A stretch of 64,000 nt of DNA from positions 1,612,001 to 1,676,000 of the forward strand of contig OY282385.1 of NCBI GenBank assembly GCA_958295935.1. The letters are read 5' to 3'. The DNA comes from an uncultured Dehalococcoidia bacterium. GTDB lineage: Bacteria; Chloroflexota; Dehalococcoidia; Lucifugimonadales; Lucifugimonadaceae. A model generated the notes under the pieces. That model ran no database searches, had not been told where the DNA came from, and was given only the letters and a program-made list of their open reading frames with translations. Position 1 is the first letter of the stretch. Each line of letters starts with the position of its first letter. Below, piece by piece: positions 35,733 through 47,335 of the stretch. The position numbers and the translations under genes were made by a program.

Positions 35733-36704
35733 TTGACCCAGCCTGCAATGCTCAGCCCGTCCGTCCGAGATCAACTGCTCGCGCAGACCTCCAATCCGGT
35801 CGCCATCACAGTCGATAAGACACAAATACTGTGGTTTGCCGATGGCATCGGAGACGACAACCCACTATGGAACGACGAGAAGATAGCCCGCAACTCACGC
35901 TACCGAGGTTTGGTCGCCCCGCCCACGTTTACCCGACTGCTCCTGTTCATGGCCTCGCCCCCAGGACAGGCCCACTCACTGTTGCGGGCCAACGTGCGCG
36001 TCGACGCCGGCACCGAATGGGAATACTTCCACCCAATCCGCGCCGGCGACCGCATCACCGTTGCCAGCCGCACAGCCGACGCCTTCGAGAAACCGGGACG
36101 CACCGGCCCGCTCGCGTTCGTCGTAAACGAGACCGACTTCTTCAACCAGCACGACCAACTCGCCGTCAGGATGAAGACCACGGTCATTTACATGAACCCA
36201 TCCTCCAGCGGAGCCTCCACCAATGAGACCGCTCGCCATGCCGCCCCCTCCCATGCCGACGATCGACCCTCCCAGGCTGGGGCGGAAAAACCCCTGTGGG
36301 ACGAAATCAAAGAAGGTGACCGACTCCCTTCAGCCGTTTGGCAGACTTCAACACGCGATATAGTCAAATACGCCTCCGCAGGACGAGACTTCTACGAAAT
36401 TCACTATGACCACCGTTTCGCTAGAAGAGCCGGCCTGCCCGGCGTCATCATGCACGGCGGCCTCAAGGCAGCGCGACTCGGCAAACTCATTACCGACTGG
36501 ATCGGCGATGCCGGAGAACTCCGGAAACTGGGATGCCAACACCGCGCCATGGACTTCCCCGGTGAACGCCAGGTGTGCGACGGCAAGGTCGTCCGCAAGT
36601 ATCAGAAAGACCGCCAACGACTGATCGACCTCCAACTCGCATACCGAAACGCATCCGGTACCGCCACAGCACCCGCCGCCGCCGCCGTATCCCTCTTCCA
36701 CTGA
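35733..36704 (+). CDS. double-hotdog MaoC-like dehydratase/hydratase
   Basis: A 323-residue protein with two hotdog modules. Residues 10-150 are a FAS1-type dehydratase domain (KTQILWFADGIGDDNPLWND, VAPPTFTRLL, EWEYFHPIRAGDRITV). Residues 185-320 are a MaoC-like domain (SAVWQTSTRDIVKYASAGRDFYE, HYDHRFARRAGLPGVIMHGG) with the Asp/His pair expected for hydration. Such enzymes add water to enoyl-CoA or mesaconyl-type substrates. The start is TTG at 35733 with GAGG 7 bases upstream. A short Ala/Ser/Pro-rich linker (150-180) joins the modules. Confidence 0.85.
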   Translation: MTQPAMLSPSVRDQLLAQTSNPVAITVDKTQILWFADGIGDDNPLWNDEKIARNSRYRGLVAPPTFTRLLLFMASPPGQAHSLLRANVRVDAGTEWEYFHPIRAGDRITVASRTADAFEKPGRTGPLAFVVNETDFFNQHDQLAVRMKTTVIYMNPSSSGASTNETARHAAPSHADDRPSQAGAEKPLWDEIKEGDRLPSAVWQTSTRDIVKYASAGRDFYEIHYDHRFARRAGLPGVIMHGGLKAARLGKLITDWIGDAGELRKLGCQHRAMDFPGERQVCDGKVVRKYQKDRQRLIDLQLAYRNASGTATAPAAAAVSLFH

Positions 36705-37480: not shown

Positions 37481-38662
37481 TCAGGGTGTCCACCGCTCCC
37501 CTCTGTCAAGCACAACCCCCAGATCAGGCGCACAGCCGATACCCGGCTCCCGATTCAGCTCGATGTAGCCGTCCACGATTCGCTCATGCGGCTCCAACGC
37601 CTCATGCCGCCACTCCACTTCATACACCGCATGCTCCAACGGCAGAACGTTGCCGAAACCAGCCGTCGCGTGCGCGCTTGTACACAATGAAACCGGCCCC
37701 GAAGGGCAGTGCAAAGACACGCAGCCAGGCTTCATCGACTCAAGCTCGCAGCCCGTAAGAAAAGCCTCCACAGGACCGCCGCAATGCATAACGTCCGGCA
37801 TCACGATGTCCAGAGACTCAGACTCCATGAGCGAACGAAAGGTCTCGATCCCGTAGCCGGACTCAGCCCCGGCCAGCGGCAACTCCGCGCAGTCCCGTAT
37901 TCGCAGAACGTCATCCCCCTGACCGATAGGGTCCACCGGCTCCTCGAACCAGTCCACTCCAATCGCACGCAACTCCTCCTCAAGCGCAATCGCAGATTCC
38001 ACGTCGAACCGGCTGTGACAGTCCACGTACAACTCCACCTCCGCGCCGATAGCCTCGCGAACCGCCGATACCCGCTCAAGTCCCTTCCGGGCCTCCGGCG
38101 GCAGACCACCAGCATCGAACGGCGCACGGCACTCGTCGAATGGCGCGCACTTCACACTGCGAAAACCCTCCGCAACAGCCCTCGCCGCAACGGCCGCGAA
38201 CGACTCGGCAGAACGGTCCACGTGCCCCCCGTCATCCGGAAGCATCGAACGATTGATGTTCGCGTATAGGCGGACGCGACGCGACGGTTCCCCCGCCCGC
38301 CCTGAACCGGCGCGCAAGTAATCCGCCAACGGCAACTCCGCACGCCGCGCCAGAGCGTCCGCAACCGCCGCACGCAAAGAACTCATGGCCGCACCCAGTA
38401 CCCCGGCCGAACGGGCCGAGGCGTCCCCCACCCGCAGAGCATCCACTACCGCGCGGTCCGAACTCAGAACCTCCCCGCGCAGACGGTCAGCCAACCTTGC
38501 AACCATGTCGGGGACGTTCCTGCCCCCAACCGCACCCGCTGCCTCAGCAAAGCCAAACCCTCCCTGACCGTCTCTTATCTCCAGAAAGCGCCAATCCGTA
38601 GGCCCCCGCACGTGCACCTTGTAGAAGATCAACTCGGAAGGCCGGAACCATAGATCAGTCAC
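37481..38662 (-). CDS. enolase-superfamily protein, divergent mandelate racemase-like
   Basis: A 393-residue member of the mandelate racemase/muconate lactonizing group. Metal ligands sit in YVDCHSRFD (Asp 214), FEEPVDP (Glu 240) and AGAESGYG (Glu 267). The barrel has Lys 171 in VKCAPFD, where the usual KxK has lost its second lysine (Ala 173), and SLHCPSGPVS (His 318). The Gly-rich N-terminal capping domain diverges from the other two paralogues in the window. Substrate unknown. The start is GTG 38662 with GAGG six bases upstream. It is 25 bases upstream of the VLRF1 gene and probably co-transcribed with it, which is functionally unexpected. Confidence 0.85.
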   Translation of the reverse strand: MTDLWFRPSELIFYKVHVRGPTDWRFLEIRDGQGGFGFAEAAGAVGGRNVPDMVARLADRLRGEVLSSDRAVVDALRVGDASARSAGVLGAAMSSLRAAVADALARRAELPLADYLRAGSGRAGEPSRRVRLYANINRSMLPDDGGHVDRSAESFAAVAARAVAEGFRSVKCAPFDECRAPFDAGGLPPEARKGLERVSAVREAIGAEVELYVDCHSRFDVESAIALEEELRAIGVDWFEEPVDPIGQGDDVLRIRDCAELPLAGAESGYGIETFRSLMESESLDIVMPDVMHCGGPVEAFLTGCELESMKPGCVSLHCPSGPVSLCTSAHATAGFGNVLPLEHAVYEVEWRHEALEPHERIVDGYIELNREPGIGCAPDLGVVLDRGERWTP

Positions 38663-39363: not shown

Positions 39364-40599
39364 ATGGCTATCACCGGAATCAACCACACCAAGACCCCAG
39401 AACCGGACATCCTCATAACAGGCGGCCGCGTGATCGACCCGGAACGAGGATTGGACGGCCCATACGACGTCGCAATTGCCGGTACCCGAATAAGCAGCGT
39501 GGAACCGACGGGCAATCCAGCGCCTGCCGCACGCACCATAGACGCATCCGGCCTGCTGGTAGTCCCGGGCCTGATCGACGTGCACGTACACGCGGCCGGA
39601 AACCTGCGCAAGGCGGTAGGCGAGGAGACCGTGCTCCCTCCCGATCTGGTGGGAGTCCACGCCGGAGTCACAACCATCCTCGACGCAGGCTCCACAGGCG
39701 CATACAACGTCGCAGGGTTCCTCAACTACGCCGCCTCACACGCAAGAACCCGGACATTGGGAATGGTCAACGCCGGAGTGCTCGGAATCTTCCGAGTGCC
39801 GGAAATCAGGGAACCCGAGGACGTGGACCACCACGCCACTGTGGCCGCAATCAGGCTGAGGCCGGACGTGCTCAAGGGCGTGAAGGTACGCATGGTCAGC
39901 CCAGCCATCATTGAAATGGGAATAGACCTTCCAAGGGCTGCAAAAGCCATGGCCCAGGCTGCGGACGCCAGACTCATGGTCCACGTCGGGGACATTCTGC
40001 AAGGACATACCATCGCCGCCAGCCTCGCTCCACGACTGCTCCGGGAAGTGCTCACCGCAGGAGACATCGTTACCCACTCATTCAGCCGCCACGTCGGCGC
40101 GCTGCTCGCAGGGGACGACCTCATCGAGGAAGCCTTGGAGGCCAAACGAAACGGAGTCGTATTCGACGTTGGCGTCGGAAGAAACAACTTCAACTTCGAC
40201 GCAGCAAAGAAGATACTCGATCAGGGCCTCACGCCGGACACCCTGGGATCAGACGTGACCGCAGGCTCGCGCATCACCCCCACCCACAGCCTTACCGAAT
40301 CCATGGGAAAGGTAATGTCCTTGGGTCTCTCGCTCGAAAAAACACTGGACATGGTTACCTGTGCACCGGCAAAAGCCCTTGGCATCCAGAAAGAAACCGG
40401 AACACTCGAACCCGGACGTACCGCAGACATATCCCTACTAGAGGAAATCCGCGGCGACTGGATCTACAGAGACGCCGACGGAGCAGCCAACCGCGGAGAC
40501 GTCGCCATCATTCCCCGCATAGCCATAAGAGCCGGCGAACTTATGCCCCTCGACTTTGGACCGCGCCCATGGGGCTGGCTGCCGGAATCCGCCAGCTGA
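39364..40599 (+). CDS. amidohydrolase (dihydroorotase/deacetylase-like metallohydrolase)
   Basis: A 411-residue amidohydrolase: ILITGGRVIDPERG, then VVPGLIDVHVHAAGN (metal His-x-His), KGVKVRMVSP with a candidate carboxylated lysine, LMVHVGD, IVTHSFSRH and the catalytic Asp in LGSDVTAGS. The tail has APAKALGI and LEPGRTADISLL as in cyclic amidohydrolases. It resembles the EF0837/Atu3266 'amidohydrolase/deacetylase' group. It precedes the selenoprotein gene by about 170 bases on the same strand and might supply its substrate (inference). The ATG at 39364 is preferred over TTG 39325. Confidence 0.83.
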   Translation: MAITGINHTKTPEPDILITGGRVIDPERGLDGPYDVAIAGTRISSVEPTGNPAPAARTIDASGLLVVPGLIDVHVHAAGNLRKAVGEETVLPPDLVGVHAGVTTILDAGSTGAYNVAGFLNYAASHARTRTLGMVNAGVLGIFRVPEIREPEDVDHHATVAAIRLRPDVLKGVKVRMVSPAIIEMGIDLPRAAKAMAQAADARLMVHVGDILQGHTIAASLAPRLLREVLTAGDIVTHSFSRHVGALLAGDDLIEEALEAKRNGVVFDVGVGRNNFNFDAAKKILDQGLTPDTLGSDVTAGSRITPTHSLTESMGKVMSLGLSLEKTLDMVTCAPAKALGIQKETGTLEPGRTADISLLEEIRGDWIYRDADGAANRGDVAIIPRIAIRAGELMPLDFGPRPWGWLPESAS

Positions 40600-40766: not shown

Positions 40767-42125
40767 ATGACCAGGCCGCTGAAAATAGTGCAATACCTCA
40801 ACCAGTTCTTTGGAGGCATCGGAGGTGAGGAATACAACGACCAGCCCGTTCAAGTCATTGAAGGGCCGGTTGGACCCGGACGAGCCTTGGCAAACATACT
40901 GGGAGACACCGTCGCCGTAACCGCCACTATCATCGCAGGAGACAACTTCCTCGTCGAAGAGCAAGACCGATCCCTGCCACCCGTTCGCCAGGCCCTCCGC
41001 AAATACCAGCCTGACCTGGTAGTCGCAGGACCGGCATTCGACGCCGGCCGATATGGACTCGGCTGCGCCCTGATATGCCAATTGGCCAACGAAACCGGAA
41101 TAAACGCCGTAACCGGCATGGAACCGGACAACCCAGGAGTCATGAGCCAGAAGGGCCTATACGTAATTCCGACAGGATCCAGCCCCGCTGAAATGGTTCC
41201 AGCCCTCAGAAAGATGGCGGCCCTCGGACTCAAGCTCGCACGCAAAGAAGAGGTCGGTTCCGCCGAGGAAGAGGAATACCTGCCGAGAGGTATCAGGAAG
41301 CCGTTCAATCGTCACAAGCAAGGAGCGGAAAGGGCCGTCGACATGGTCCTCGGCCGCATTAAAGGAGAACCCGTAGCTTCAGAAATCTCCATAAGGCAAT
41401 ATGACCAGGTGGATCCCCCGCCGCCCATCGACGACCTCAGCCGATACAGCGTGGCCCTCATTACCACCGCCGGAATAGTACCAAGAGGAAACCCAAACAG
41501 GCAGTCCACCGAGATACCGCGAAACTACTTCGCATACAGCATCGCAGGGGTCGACTCCCTAACCGTCCAGAACTGGGAGTCCGTCCACACTGGCTTCAAG
41601 GGACACGTATACAACACCTTGAACCCAAACTACGCCCTCCCCCTCCCCGCCCTGCGTGAACTGGATCGAATAGGCGAAATTGGCCAACTGCACGACCGAT
41701 TCTACTCCGTAGTCGGAGGCGGATGCCCGGTCAGCGATGCACGACGAATCGGACGAGGTATAGCAACAGAACTCACCGACGCAGACGTAGAGGCTGTGAT
41801 CCTGGAATCGACCTGAGGAAGCTGCAATCGCTGCGGCGCAACGATATCCAAAGAACTTGAACGAGCAGGCATAAGGGTGGCCATGGTCAGCGCTCTCCCA
41901 TCCGTACCGCTCACCCTCGGAGCACACCGAGTGGTACGAGGAATTCGCGTAGAACACCTCTGCGGAGACCCAACACTCTCACCGGAAAGTGACCGAGAAC
42001 TCATGCTGCTGATAGCCCGCACCGCGCTGCGCGCTATCAAGACGCAGGTGCAAGAACCGACTCTCTTCGAACGAGAGGAAACCCAGGCCCCCAGTGTCCA
42101 CAGGGAGTTGGTCGGTGCGTCTTGA
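40767..42125 (+). CDS. selenocysteine-containing reductase, GrdB-like component B (UGA read through at residue 350)
   Basis: The frame reads from ATG 40767 (GGAGG seven bases upstream) to TGA 41814, then continues in the same frame to a stop at 42125. Across the TGA it gives VILESTUGSCNRCGATIS, which matches the GrdB active-site pattern (ST-U-GTCTRCGAT). The following ELERAGI and PLTLGAHRVV also match GrdB to its C-terminus. The total is 452 residues with Sec at 350, the size and Sec position I recall for clostridial GrdB. GrdB cleaves the C-N bond of glycine, sarcosine or betaine with the Sec. A terminator reading would delete the essential UxxCxxC. The substrate here is unknown. grdA, grdC and grdD are absent from the window. 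Confidence 0.92.
41814..41816 (+). other. TGA recoded as selenocysteine
   Basis: In-frame TGA at codon 350 of the GrdB-like gene. Downstream coding is conserved in the same frame. A short stem is possible just after it (GCTGC at 41821-41825 pairing with GCGGC at 41833-41837), but I cannot show that it is a bacterial SECIS element by eye. Confidence 0.9.
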
Positions 42126-43437
42126 AGTAGGCAGCGTTCAGGTGGACGAAATCCGGTGGGGACCCTCCACCCGATTCTCAAACGGAACGCTCACCCTTGA
42201 CCGCGATGAAATTGAAGAACTCGTCCTCCAGGACTCCCAGATAGAGAGGACACGAGCCGAAATCGCCTCACCAGGCGATTCCGTCCGCATCATAAATCCC
42301 AACGACAAGATCGAACCACGAGTCAAAGTCGCAGGACGAGGCGTCGCATATCCCGGCTACCAGGGCCGACCGACCGAGCAGGTAGGCAGCGGAAGAACGC
42401 ACCGCATGGCAGGCCTTGCGGTCATCGACTGCCTCGACTATTCCGCAGCAGGGGAGAGCCAGGCGGGAGAGGACCGCACCTGGAGCCGGGACGAGCACGG
42501 AACACTCGGAAACGACTGGCCGGAAGGCGTCAGCCCGGACTTCATAGACGTGAGCGGACCAGGCGCGCAACTCAAGCCGTTCGGAACCCTGCACAACCTC
42601 TGCATCGTAATACAGGCCCCCAGCGGAGTCTCCGCCGATGAACAGCACGGCGTTTCACAATCCGCAGCCATGCGGGTTGCCGAGAGAATCGCCGAAACCG
42701 TCAGAAACGTACAGCCAGACTACGTCGAAACCTTCGACACACAACCCAGACCAGACCTCCCAAGCGTCGCATACATACCGCACCTCGCCTCGTTTGAACC
42801 ACAGGTCGGCCCCCGAGGACGATTCGGCAGCGCAGTGTACGGACAGGGAAGGCTGTCAGCGCCCTGGCTGCTGGAATCGACCGAGCTCATGGACGGAGCC
42901 GTCGCAGGATCTGGACACACCTGGATCATGGCCAACAACCCGGTGGTGATGAGCCTGGCCCGCCGCCACGGGAAAGACGTCAACTTCTTGGGATGCATAT
43001 TGCAGCGCACCAACTGGACCAACCAGCGGGAATACGTCCTGGCAGCGCACAGGGCAGGAGTCTTGGCGGAAAAACTGGGCGCGCAGGGGGCAATCATCAC
43101 CACCGACGTGCGAGGTCAAAGATGGGTCGGAACCATGTTGACCGTGCAGGAATGTGAAAATCGGGGCATCGACGTCGTACTCCTCACCGAGGAAGAAGAC
43201 AACGAGAACGGAGCCGCGCCAGCCCTCCTATTCGCACCAACGGAACTGAAGTACGTCGTCACCACTGGCACCGGAGACGTGGCCGGCGGCTTCCCGGCAG
43301 TGGATCGGGTTATAGGCGCTATCGACGAGCCCACGGCCCAATGGTACAAGGCCTTCCCGCCCCTACACGGGCGCTACGGAATCGCGCACGTTGCCGACTA
43401 TTACGGCTACGGCTCACAGAGCTACGCCGACTACTAG
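42115..43437 (+). CDS. GrdE-like component B partner (alpha/beta precursor family)
   Basis: A 440-residue protein matching the glycine/sarcosine/betaine reductase component B alpha/beta precursor: GTLTLDRDEIEELVLQD, a central VYGQGRLSAPWLLES and NNPVVMSLARRHGKDVNF. Its GTG at 42115, eight bases after GGGAG, overlaps the selenoprotein stop by 11 bases, so the two are translationally coupled. In true GrdE, as I recall, a Cys within DGAIVSGNC is cleaved to form a pyruvoyl group that binds the amine. Here the segment is DGAVAGSGHTW with no Cys, and no other T-C or N-C pair occurs. It may therefore be a non-processed, divergent type. Confidence 0.82.
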   Translation: MRLEVGSVQVDEIRWGPSTRFSNGTLTLDRDEIEELVLQDSQIERTRAEIASPGDSVRIINPNDKIEPRVKVAGRGVAYPGYQGRPTEQVGSGRTHRMAGLAVIDCLDYSAAGESQAGEDRTWSRDEHGTLGNDWPEGVSPDFIDVSGPGAQLKPFGTLHNLCIVIQAPSGVSADEQHGVSQSAAMRVAERIAETVRNVQPDYVETFDTQPRPDLPSVAYIPHLASFEPQVGPRGRFGSAVYGQGRLSAPWLLESTELMDGAVAGSGHTWIMANNPVVMSLARRHGKDVNFLGCILQRTNWTNQREYVLAAHRAGVLAEKLGAQGAIITTDVRGQRWVGTMLTVQECENRGIDVVLLTEEEDNENGAAPALLFAPTELKYVVTTGTGDVAGGFPAVDRVIGAIDEPTAQWYKAFPPLHGRYGIAHVADYYGYGSQSYADY

Positions 43438-43464: not shown

Positions 43465-44379
43465 TCACTCGATCTGACGAAGGCGAGGATCGAACCGGTC
43501 GCGCAGCCAGTCCCCAAGGAATGTCACCGCCAGCACCGTCAGGGCTATGGCGATGCCCGGAAATACCGAAATCCACCAGGCGTGGGTAACGTAGATCCTG
43601 CCCGCGGAAACCATCGACCCCCAGGCAGGAGTGGGCGGAGGAACACCTACCCCGAGGTAGCTCAAACCAGCCTCGGCAAGAATTACTGAACCCACCAGGA
43701 GCGTGCCTACCACAACCACCGTGTTCACCACCCCAGGCAGGATGTGACGGGCCAAAATCCGCGGCCCGGAAGCTCCGGCCACCTTCGCAAGGCTCACGTA
43801 ATCCGTCTCCTTGAGCGCCAGTACCTCCCCGCGAACCTGTCTCGCGAACCCGCTCCAGAACCAGAAGGCCAGGATCCCAACCAACACCGCAAAGCTCCGA
43901 CCAAGCACGATCACCAAAACCATCCCCAGAAGGATGAAAGGCAGGGCCAGCTTGATATCCACTATGCGCATGATCAGCTCGTCCACCCACCCCCCGTAAT
44001 AACCCGACACGAGCCCAAGCAGAGTGCCCGCAGTACCGCTGATCGCCAGCGTAACACCCGCAACGATCAACGACACACGAGCACCGTAGATGATGCGGCT
44101 AAGCACGTCCCGGCCCAGACTGTCCGTGCCCAGAAGGAACCCGCTCCCCGAGTCGGTGAACGATGGAGGAAGATGGCGGGTGCGCAAATTCGGCAGCTCA
44201 TGCTCATGCGGAGCAAGCCACGGAGCGAACAAACCACCAAACACCAGCAGAGAGATGACCACTATCGAAAACACAGGCCAACGACGAAACGGAAGCGTTA
44301 TACGCCTGATACGACCCTGCCCCGACGACTTGCCAATTTGCCCGATCTCAGATGAAGTGGCCACACCCAAACGCCTCAC
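43465..44379 (-). CDS. peptide/nickel-type ABC transporter permease (DppC-like)
   Basis: A 304-residue inner-membrane permease: N-terminal helix, HLPPSF, then LLGTDSLGRDVLSRIIYGARVSL (the DppC/OppC signature), about five further helices and the ATPase-docking EAA-like loop YVSLAKVAGASGPRILARHILP. The GTG start at 44379 overlaps the dppB-like stop (GTGA). It is third gene of a set with the upstream binding protein and permease B. No ATP-binding subunit is adjacent. Substrate class: oligopeptides or other small polar solutes. Confidence 0.92.
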   Translation of the reverse strand: MRRLGVATSSEIGQIGKSSGQGRIRRITLPFRRWPVFSIVVISLLVFGGLFAPWLAPHEHELPNLRTRHLPPSFTDSGSGFLLGTDSLGRDVLSRIIYGARVSLIVAGVTLAISGTAGTLLGLVSGYYGGWVDELIMRIVDIKLALPFILLGMVLVIVLGRSFAVLVGILAFWFWSGFARQVRGEVLALKETDYVSLAKVAGASGPRILARHILPGVVNTVVVVGTLLVGSVILAEAGLSYLGVGVPPPTPAWGSMVSAGRIYVTHAWWISVFPGIAIALTVLAVTFLGDWLRDRFDPRLRQIE

Positions 44380-45296
44380 GAGCCCAGACGAATACGAGGA
44401 TCGATCACCGCGTACAGCAAATCGACCAGAAGCGAACTGATCAGATAGAAGAAAGTCACCACCAGAATGACCCCCTGAATGATGGCGTAATCCGAAGTCT
44501 GAACTGATTGCAGAGCCAACTGACCAATCCCAGGCCACGCAAACACCGCCTCGATCACGATCGCACCGGTTATAAGCCCCGCAAACGTGAGACCGGCATA
44601 GGTCAAAGGCGCGATCAACGCATTACGGAAACCATGCTTCCAAACCACCAGAAAACCCGATACGCCCTTCGCTCGAGCCAACTTCACGTACTCCGAGTCG
44701 AGAACGTCCAGCATCGCAGATCTGGTAAGGCGAAGCTGACCAGAGCTAGCGCCCCAGCCAACCACGAACGCAGGAAGGATCAAATGGCTCAGATTCCCGC
44801 GCCCCGAAGTCGGTAGCCAGCCCAGCGCTACGCCGAACAACAGAATCCCCATGATTCCAACCCAGAAAACCGGCAGCGATACCCCCAGCACCGCAGACCA
44901 CCTCCCCGCCAGATCCCAGTAGCTCCCGCGGTACACCGCAGACAGCACTCCCAAAGGAATCCCGATCACTATGGAAACCAGAAAACCCGCAATTGCCAAC
45001 TGCGCTGACGCCGGCAGACGCTCCCAGATCAGATCCCTAACAGGTACGCTGCGGTATAAGGACACGCCGAGATTACCCCTCGCGATACGACCTAGGAATA
45101 ACCCGTACTGCTGATACACCGGCTTGTCGAATCCCAACCGCTTGCCCCATAACTCGTAATCCGAACGAAGCGTAAAGTCGTCAACCCAGATTGAGCGAGG
45201 GTCGCCTTGTATTCGTGCTAGCACGAATACAAGCAGAGTCGCACCCAAGAGGCTCAACAGCGTAGTAAGCAGCCGCCGGGCCAGGAAACGCGCCAT
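44376..45296 (-). CDS. peptide/nickel-type ABC transporter permease (DppB-like)
   Basis: A 306-residue permease with six predicted helices: MARFLARRLLTTLLSLLGATL at the start, GNLGVSLYRSVPVRDLIWERLPASAQLA, and an EAA loop YVKLARAKGVSGFLVVWKHGFRNALI. It pairs with the DppC-like protein to form the membrane channel. GGGGAG precedes the ATG. It lies about 107 bases downstream of the binding-protein gene. Confidence 0.92.
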   Translation of the reverse strand: MARFLARRLLTTLLSLLGATLLVFVLARIQGDPRSIWVDDFTLRSDYELWGKRLGFDKPVYQQYGLFLGRIARGNLGVSLYRSVPVRDLIWERLPASAQLAIAGFLVSIVIGIPLGVLSAVYRGSYWDLAGRWSAVLGVSLPVFWVGIMGILLFGVALGWLPTSGRGNLSHLILPAFVVGWGASSGQLRLTRSAMLDVLDSEYVKLARAKGVSGFLVVWKHGFRNALIAPLTYAGLTFAGLITGAIVIEAVFAWPGIGQLALQSVQTSDYAIIQGVILVVTFFYLISSLLVDLLYAVIDPRIRLGS

Positions 45297-45403: not shown

Positions 45404-47335
45404 TTAGGGCCTCGATATGCGGTCCAGACTCCGGGGATAGCCGATGTCGCTAAGACCCATCGGCCACTCCTTGATCTTGTTGGGGTTGATCGCGATCGTC
45501 ACCGAAAGACCCATCGTTTCAATCGAAATCATGTTGTGGACTGTGTAGTCCCACACAGCCTCCTGCGCCGAACGAAGGCTCGCCTGCGTCGTCGCACCAC
45601 GAACCGCATTCACAAGAGTGATCAACTCGGGCAACTCGAACCCAGGGTTGAACGCTCCACCGGGATGCCGGTTGAAGATCAACGTACCGTCCCGCGCATG
45701 TGACCGCGCCCACAGCCAAATGTTGTTCCGTTCCCTGTTCACAAGGCCCACCCGGTGAGCCTGATACGTAAGGGTCTCGATGTTCATCTCAACGCCTATC
45801 GCACGCCACATCCCCGCAACCGCTTCACCGACCTCCACGGCCAGAGGATGACCCGTCGTGATCACAAGGTCAGCCTCGAAACCATCAGGGTAACCGCCGT
45901 CCGCCAGGTACTTCTTCGCTACGTCCAGATCGTACGGAATCGTCCACTTTGCATCGATCTCCGAAAGCCAAGCCTGGCGCTGGGCGCCCCCCATACCATT
46001 GACGTGCTGCTGAAATGCCTTCCCGGCGCCGATCGTCTCCACCAGAGCCTCACGGTCTACCGACGCCGCCAACCCCCAGCGGACGTTGCGAGCACGTTCC
46101 ATTGAAGAAGGATCGTTGCAGTCCCCGATGTATGGAATAGAAGGGTCATACGCCGGACGAGGTGGAACCGGATTGTCGTTGAAAGTGGCGCCCCAGCAGA
46201 ACTGACCCGCAGGGTAGAAGGTGAATCCCACCCCGGCCCCCGGCAGACCGCGAACGTCGAATCCCTTACCCTCGATGTCCCGGATCAAGGGAGTCGGGAC
46301 GTCCGTCACGTCGACCTCTCCAGCTTCCAGCGCAGCAAGACGAGTCGTTATCTCCGCAATCTCGCGAACGATCACCGTACCGTATGCAGGATCCCGGTGG
46401 TGATGGTTCGGAACCCGCGAAAGAACCATGCGGTCGCCAGTCCTGAAAGACTCAAGCTCATAAGGACCGCTCCCGATCCCAGCGCTCATCGCTTTGTCAG
46501 GACCCAACCGGTCCAGAACCGCTTTGGAATGGATGGCCCGCGTCGTATTGGCGCTGACGAAACCATCAAGCCATGTCGGACGAGGCTCATCCGCAGACAA
46601 GCTCACTGTGTAATCGTCCAACTTGCTCATGTGAGAATTCAGTTGCTTGTCCAGACCCGTACCGCTCGCAATAGTTCCCTCCGTCCAAACCGCTTCCTCC
46701 CACGAGTAGACGAAATCGTCCGCAGTCACCTCCCCGTTGCCGCCGTGGAAAGGCACGCCCCTCTTGATTCGGAACGTAAGCTCCGTGAAATCCGCATTGA
46801 ACTCCCACGACTCGGCAAGCAAGCCCGACAAATTCCCCGACTCGTCTATCTCAAGCGGCGACTCTTGAATCCCCAAAAGACCGGCAAACTGAGAATTCGG
46901 GACAGGCGAACGCCAAGGCACGAAACTCGGAAAGCCAATGTTGTCAAACGCTATGACCAGAGTGTCAGACCTTGGATCAGGCACAGGAGTCGCAGGCACA
47001 GGAGTCGCTACCACAACCACCGTCTCAACCACACGCTCCGTTTGAGTCACAGGCTTCTCAACCACAACCGTTTGCACCACTCGCTCAGTGCGAGTTACAG
47101 GCTTCTCAACCACAACCGTCTCAACCACCGTCACCGTCTTGCCCTCGATCTGCTTCTCCACGACCACCGTCTCAACCACCTTCTCCACCCTCGTGATCGG
47201 CTTTTCCACTACGACGGTCTGAACTTCAGTCACCGTCTGAGTCCCCCCGCCGCAGGCTATCGCCAGCGCGGATAGGGCCCCCGCCGCCAGCAGAATGGCA
47301 AGAATCCCCCGGCGGTGAATCTGGCGTTTGGACAT
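45404..47335 (-). CDS. peptide-type ABC transporter substrate-binding lipoprotein (SBP_bac_5)
   Basis: A 643-residue exported lipoprotein: signal peptide with lipobox near Cys 28 (ALAIACGGG), then a low-complexity stalk of about 90 residues built from VVVEKPVT/RTERVVET repeats, and a family-5 binding domain from about residue 125 (LTFRIKRGVPFHGG, DFVYSWEEA, AVEVGEAVAGMWRAIG). The stalk probably holds the domain away from the membrane; similar repeats are common in Chloroflexota lipoproteins. It binds peptides or other solutes for the two permeases downstream. AGAGGGGGC lies before the ATG. Confidence 0.92.
   Translation of the reverse strand: MSKRQIHRRGILAILLAAGALSALAIACGGGTQTVTEVQTVVVEKPITRVEKVVETVVVEKQIEGKTVTVVETVVVEKPVTRTERVVQTVVVEKPVTQTERVVETVVVVATPVPATPVPDPRSDTLVIAFDNIGFPSFVPWRSPVPNSQFAGLLGIQESPLEIDESGNLSGLLAESWEFNADFTELTFRIKRGVPFHGGNGEVTADDFVYSWEEAVWTEGTIASGTGLDKQLNSHMSKLDDYTVSLSADEPRPTWLDGFVSANTTRAIHSKAVLDRLGPDKAMSAGIGSGPYELESFRTGDRMVLSRVPNHHHRDPAYGTVIVREIAEITTRLAALEAGEVDVTDVPTPLIRDIEGKGFDVRGLPGAGVGFTFYPAGQFCWGATFNDNPVPPRPAYDPSIPYIGDCNDPSSMERARNVRWGLAASVDREALVETIGAGKAFQQHVNGMGGAQRQAWLSEIDAKWTIPYDLDVAKKYLADGGYPDGFEADLVITTGHPLAVEVGEAVAGMWRAIGVEMNIETLTYQAHRVGLVNRERNNIWLWARSHARDGTLIFNRHPGGAFNPGFELPELITLVNAVRGATTQASLRSAQEAVWDYTVHNMISIETMGLSVTIAINPNKIKEWPMGLSDIGYPRSLDRISRP
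46990..47245. repeat. Coding minisatellite-like repeat in the binding-protein stalk
   Basis: Imperfect 48-base units carrying ACAGGCTTCTCAACCAC and ACAACCGT on the plus strand recur (for example at 47049 and 47097), encoding 16-residue VVVEKPVT...RVV units. Units differ by synonymous and conservative changes, implying older duplication. Confidence 0.75.

Follow-up and report, generated by a model that had tools for sequence, protein, structure and literature searches.

A probable pyruvoyl-free, substrate-specific protein B of the glycine/sarcosine/betaine reductase family in a Chloroflexota bacterium

Almost all of the literature on glycine reductase and its relatives comes from amino-acid-fermenting anaerobes, in which the enzymes carry a pyruvoyl cofactor. 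In GrdE of C. difficile the pyruvoyl group is found at the start of the peptide 242-266 (PMC9908766). PrdA of D-proline reductase (PrdA/PrdB), whose subunits are homologous, is processed as well. GrdI of betaine reductase (GrdH/GrdI) and FarE of the fluoroacetate reductase FarB/FarE from Cloacibacillus porcorum MFA1, which acts on a non-amine substrate and has a Grd core in its genome, have been reported to lack the cysteines for processing and not to be pro-proteins, which makes a Cys-less protein B subunit a published feature for betaine and fluoroacetate (PMC10838667). Glycine reductases of Chloroflexota have been reported from serpentinite systems, and the part of that report used here mentions neither GrdD nor the cysteine (PMC9751293). 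We found no matching description in the open literature of a Chloroflexota Grd system that lacks GrdD or the Cys.

The window analyzed here is a stretch of 64,000 nt (G000:C1:1612001-1676000) on the 2.75-Mb single contig of a Chloroflexota bacterium. It contains a GrdB-like gene at 40767-42125 on the plus strand, whose product of 452 aa matches PF07355 with 377 bits and TIGR01918 with 398 bits (cut-off 65), while the betaine GrdH model gives 367 bits, below its cut-off of 775. The next gene (42115-43437, plus strand), with a GTG start, shares its first 11 nt with the end of the GrdB gene. Its product is a genuine member of PF09338 (Gly_reductase), with 249 bits against a gathering threshold of 22.2 and an E-value of 8e-74 over residues 9-411 of 447 aa, and is predicted to be the unprocessed GrdE-like subunit of a substrate-specific protein B. 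The curated NCBIfam models for GrdG (NF040793, 210.5 bits, cut-off 780) and FarE (NF053623, 91.9 bits, cut-off 675) and the PrdA model (28 bits, cut-off 700) all score it below cut-off. By its curated score the protein is thus not FarE. An antiporter and a radical SAM gene belong to the far operon, and the CxxC present in the window GrdB is missing from FarB (PMC10838667). With the protein B of P. acidaminophilum, A. sticklandii and C. difficile (GrdG/GrdF, GrdE/GrdB) the pair shares the two subunits, the UxxCxxC motif of GrdB and the DGA...NNP...RRHG blocks, but it lacks Cys242 and the neighboring Cys, the gene order is B-E instead of E-B, and GrdD is missing from the genome. A PDB sequence search with both subunits returned no relative, and an Rfam gathering scan of the whole window gave no match.

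The cleavage-site region of the GrdE-like protein (42892-42924, plus strand; DGAVAGSGHTWIMANNPVV) was aligned with GrdE, GrdG, GrdI and PrdA. The reference proteins were taken from plasmid records and comprise P. acidaminophilum GrdG, A. noterae GrdE (from a locus with grdA, B, C and D alongside), GrdI-type proteins of E. gilvus and A. noterae, and PrdA from two Lactobacillales; GrdE, GrdG and PrdA served as positive controls for the site. The site reads DGAILSGNC-V-SAC in A. noterae GrdE and DGAITSGNC-V-APC in P. acidaminophilum GrdG, with the Cys at residue 242 in both, and PrdA (DGGVHALTC) has its Cys in the same column. The window protein reads DGAVA-G--------SGHTW from residue 260, followed by NNPVV at 274 and RRHGKD at 283, and has gaps in the Cys242 column and where the second conserved Cys stands. 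Thus a short deletion, covering both site cysteines and about eight residues around them, accounts for the missing Cys, rather than a single substitution. This bears out the first-pass annotation, which had noticed that the GrdE-like partner lacks the pyruvoyl-forming Cys; the motif that it gave, DGAIVSGN followed by Cys, is essentially right when compared with the GrdE and GrdG sequences. A Cys conserved elsewhere in the protein would have been a candidate for a relocated cleavage nucleophile, but in and around the loop the clade as a whole shares no conserved Cys, and we found no different conserved nucleophile in place of the missing cysteines. C163 and C347 are conserved in 75% and 83% of the 24-member clade described below, respectively, but neither is near the cleavage loop or generally common to the Cys-type proteins. 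These alignments suggest that the GrdE-like chain undergoes no self-cleavage and forms no carbonyl cofactor.

We assessed how widespread such proteins are by searching about 690 genomes of the same phylum and class (partly overlapping sets) along with named contigs and the plasmid references. This gave 56 distinct homologs of at least 300 aa each, a sample that is heavily Chloroflexota. The Cys is absent from 51 of them, including all six proteins of this genome, and its absence is therefore not due to chance or sequencing error; two GrdI-type proteins also lack it. SGNC is seen in the remaining five, three from plasmid records outside Chloroflexota and two from one Chloroflexota genus. In the tree, the Cys-type proteins form one group with GrdI as its neighbor (support 97/91 and 96/89), and all six GrdE-like proteins of this genome fall inside a 24-member clade with support of 100/99. 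As PrdA has the Cys, loss is a simpler guess than gain, with the base of the tree unresolved and the sampling heavily Chloroflexota. The pyruvoyl type is a minority among these homologs, most of which are from Chloroflexota, and the annotation “glycine reductase” is therefore likely to be wrong in many environmental genomes. In the Chloroflexota genus with canonical SGNC GrdE-type proteins (L048, L049, L086), GrdD is likewise undetected in genomes that are 58-68% complete. The sixth GrdE-like gene of this genome (L016:10727-12064, minus strand) has no adjoining GrdB and reads DGAICGSYSW, with a Cys that is offset from the cleavage column.

The partner subunit is a predicted selenoprotein with Sec at residue 350 (TUGSCNRC), encoded by an in-frame TGA at 41814-41816 (plus strand), and its UxxCxxC motif is intact. 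The homologous codon is TGA in 39 of 39 GrdB genes examined and never TAA or TAG, and the genome encodes a tRNA-Sec (70 bits, anticodon tca) and SelB (337 bits, cut-off 242). Downstream of the TGA, at 41827-41845 (plus strand), we found a SECIS-like hairpin with an 8-bp stem and a GGC loop. In an alignment of 21 sequences the hairpin, with a GGN loop, has 98.8% of its cells paired compared to 15-63% for slid versions, and the window copy has one C.A mismatch. A compensatory change occurs at one pair, in two sequences; this covariation is modest support, because coding constraint explains much of the conservation. Folded alone, the window region is not unusually stable (z 0.17), and the support for the hairpin comes entirely from the alignment.

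The genome encodes six GrdE-like and five GrdB-like genes, one GrdA (183 bits, with a TGA in CFVU) and one GrdC (NF040746, 587 bits, cut-off 450). The grdA and grdC genes are adjacent to each other at 561-563 kb on the same contig, 1.09 Mb from the pair. The first-pass annotation had described grdA, grdC and grdD as missing from the neighborhood; for grdA and grdC this is true of the neighborhood only, and grdD was not found genome-wide with a GrdD protein query and the NF040747 model. In 19 more Chloroflexota genomes that carry Grd genes, this model gave either no hit or weak matches of at most 25 bits to a PlsX-like stretch, compared to 552 and 581 bits in two control records. GrdC and GrdA are grouped, with no GrdD among them, at nine Chloroflexota loci, including the one in this genome, whereas GrdD comes after GrdC at three control loci; at L086, GrdC lies at the contig start and an upstream GrdD could be cut off. 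For a single genome the absence of GrdD rests on family searches, and as some genomes are incomplete (58-100%) it is strong mainly as a pattern. The Chloroflexota GrdC, at L016:14806-16248 (minus strand) and at nine other loci, ends about 20-30 residues before that of three GrdD-bearing species, and such a short C-terminus would fit loss of a contact with GrdD.

The genome thus has five substrate-specific protein B modules that would supply a single common core, and the pair at 40767-43437 is one of them. We consider it fairly likely that this pair forms a protein B of the glycine/sarcosine/betaine reductase family that has no pyruvoyl group and stays unprocessed, in which Sec attack cleaves the C-X bond of an activated carboxymethyl compound, with a GrdD-free exit for the acetyl group. 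In such an enzyme the GrdB selenolate (UGSCNRC) would attack the α-carbon of a carboxymethyl compound, X-CH2-COO-, and X, for example a quaternary ammonium, a sulfonium or a halide by analogy with GrdI and FarE, would leave without Schiff-base activation. The carboxymethyl group would next move to the Sec of GrdA, of which the genome encodes a single, shared copy, and then to GrdC, which is encoded as well. Without GrdD, the subunit that forms acetyl phosphate, GrdC would probably pass its acetyl group to an acceptor such as CoA instead of having it released as acetyl phosphate. The known members without the Cys have substrates other than glycine, which by analogy makes a different substrate and a step free of a Schiff base the natural reading, and the pair probably cuts small acids other than glycine. 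The suggestion in the first-pass annotation of a different substrate and mechanism thus stands in part: the missing Cys, the predicted selenoprotein partner and the Cys-less members with non-glycine substrates agree with it, but the precedent of FarE and GrdI (PMC10838667) makes a wholly new mechanism or a C-N lyase class unnecessary.

Some observations count against the pyruvoyl-free reading. GrdI keeps a full-length site loop that the window type deletes, which makes the mechanistic analogy imperfect, and GrdC could work without producing acetyl-CoA. The genome also encodes a heme-copper oxidase subunit I, and therefore the bacterium probably respires, which raises the question of a Sec-based reductase in a respiring cell.

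We also considered that the pair could be a betaine reductase of Chloroflexota, of the GrdH/GrdI type, and find this unlikely. It would agree with the Cys-less site, as in GrdI, and betaines could be carried by the binding-protein-dependent importer encoded next to the pair. This consists of an OppC-type permease (43465-44538, minus strand, convergent with the pair; PF00528, PF12911), an OppB-type permease (44376-45296, minus strand; PF00528, PF19300) and a family 5 solute-binding protein of the peptide/opine/nickel type (45404-47335, minus strand; PF00496, 167 bits). The importer is, however, of the peptide type and not BCCT, the GrdH score is less than half of its cut-off, and GrdI, which retains the full loop (SGSFMPCSSK), branches with the Cys-type proteins and not with the clade of the window protein. 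The curated scores and the separate branch distinguish the GrdE-like protein from GrdI.

It is quite improbable that the chain is processed after all and that a Ser or Thr, for example S266 of the Gly-Ser in AGSG or T269, takes the place of the Cys as the source of a carbonyl cofactor, like in classical pyruvoyl enzymes, which would preserve Schiff-base chemistry with an amine. Pyruvoyl groups in other enzyme families usually come from Ser. The window loop has a Gly-Ser, and a Ser/Thr at 269, beside Trp270, is invariant in all aligned homologs and might in principle give rise to a carbonyl. However, conservation does not extend to the Gly-Ser, with the loop deleted in many relatives, and Ser/Thr269 is also invariant in the Cys-type proteins, which are cut elsewhere. 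An AlphaFold2 model of the GrdE-like protein, made from 8 sequences, has a mean pLDDT of 67.6 with values below 50 at loop residues 265-267; Foldseek found no match to it in the PDB at an E-value of 0.001 or better, and the fold was uninformative.

We think it doubtful to a similar degree, and slightly more so, that the pair no longer reduces a carboxymethyl compound and performs other Sec-dependent chemistry, for example as a lyase or redox protein, without use of GrdA or GrdC. The pair is unlinked to grdA and grdC on the chromosome and GrdD is missing, but pairs of the same clade lie directly beside GrdC and/or GrdA (L073, L075, L076, L081) and the UxxCxxC motif is preserved. It is very improbable that GrdB itself supplies the carbonyl for Schiff-base chemistry, in the form of a formylglycine that a radical SAM enzyme would produce from the Ser of STUG, an idea put forward for FarB (PMC10838667), since the window GrdB does have the Ser (ILESTUG) but the four other GrdB proteins of the genome and most relatives read VATUG, and no radical SAM gene was identified beside the pair.

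Going beyond the pyruvoyl-free reading of this pair, we tentatively suggest as a possibility that Chloroflexota, some with respiratory oxidases, have expanded the Grd system with many pyruvoyl-free protein B modules for non-amine carboxymethyl compounds, and that a tail-less GrdC hands the acetyl group to CoA without GrdD. If true, this would allow a variety of small organic acids to be converted to acetyl-CoA in a selenium-dependent way. The core with a short GrdC and no GrdD would be a second departure from the known systems, and bears on how acetyl units and energy are gained from small organic acids. Importer genes of this kind, for a family 5 binding protein and two permeases of the Opp type, are found beside the window pair, three other pairs of the genome and those of several relatives. 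Five B pairs in one genome, four of them with an Opp/Dpp-type importer, suggest parallel substrate entries into one reductive core.

Near grdA we observed two further genes with an in-frame TGA. One encodes the catalytic chain of a ferredoxin-thioredoxin reductase (L016:12239-12505, minus strand, C1 about 559.2-559.5 kb; PF02943, 64 bits), a predicted selenoprotein with CPU, and the other a glutaredoxin (L016:13023-13256, plus strand, C1 about 560.0-560.3 kb; PF00462, 51 bits) with UGPC. They are possible electron donors to the Grd core.

Of the two neighbors named in the first-pass annotation as candidates for co-conservation with the pair, the ABC importer type is often found beside such pairs. 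The other, an amidohydrolase directly upstream (39364-40599, plus strand; PF01979, PRK09237-type with 313 bits against a cut-off of 371), is possibly on the same transcript; it did not recur in the neighborhood comparison and was rejected as a conserved partner. An enolase-superfamily (MR_MLE) gene at 37481-38662 (minus strand) and a MaoC/FAS1-dehydratase-type gene at 35733-36704 (plus strand) also lie near the pair, which suggests a wider catabolic island.
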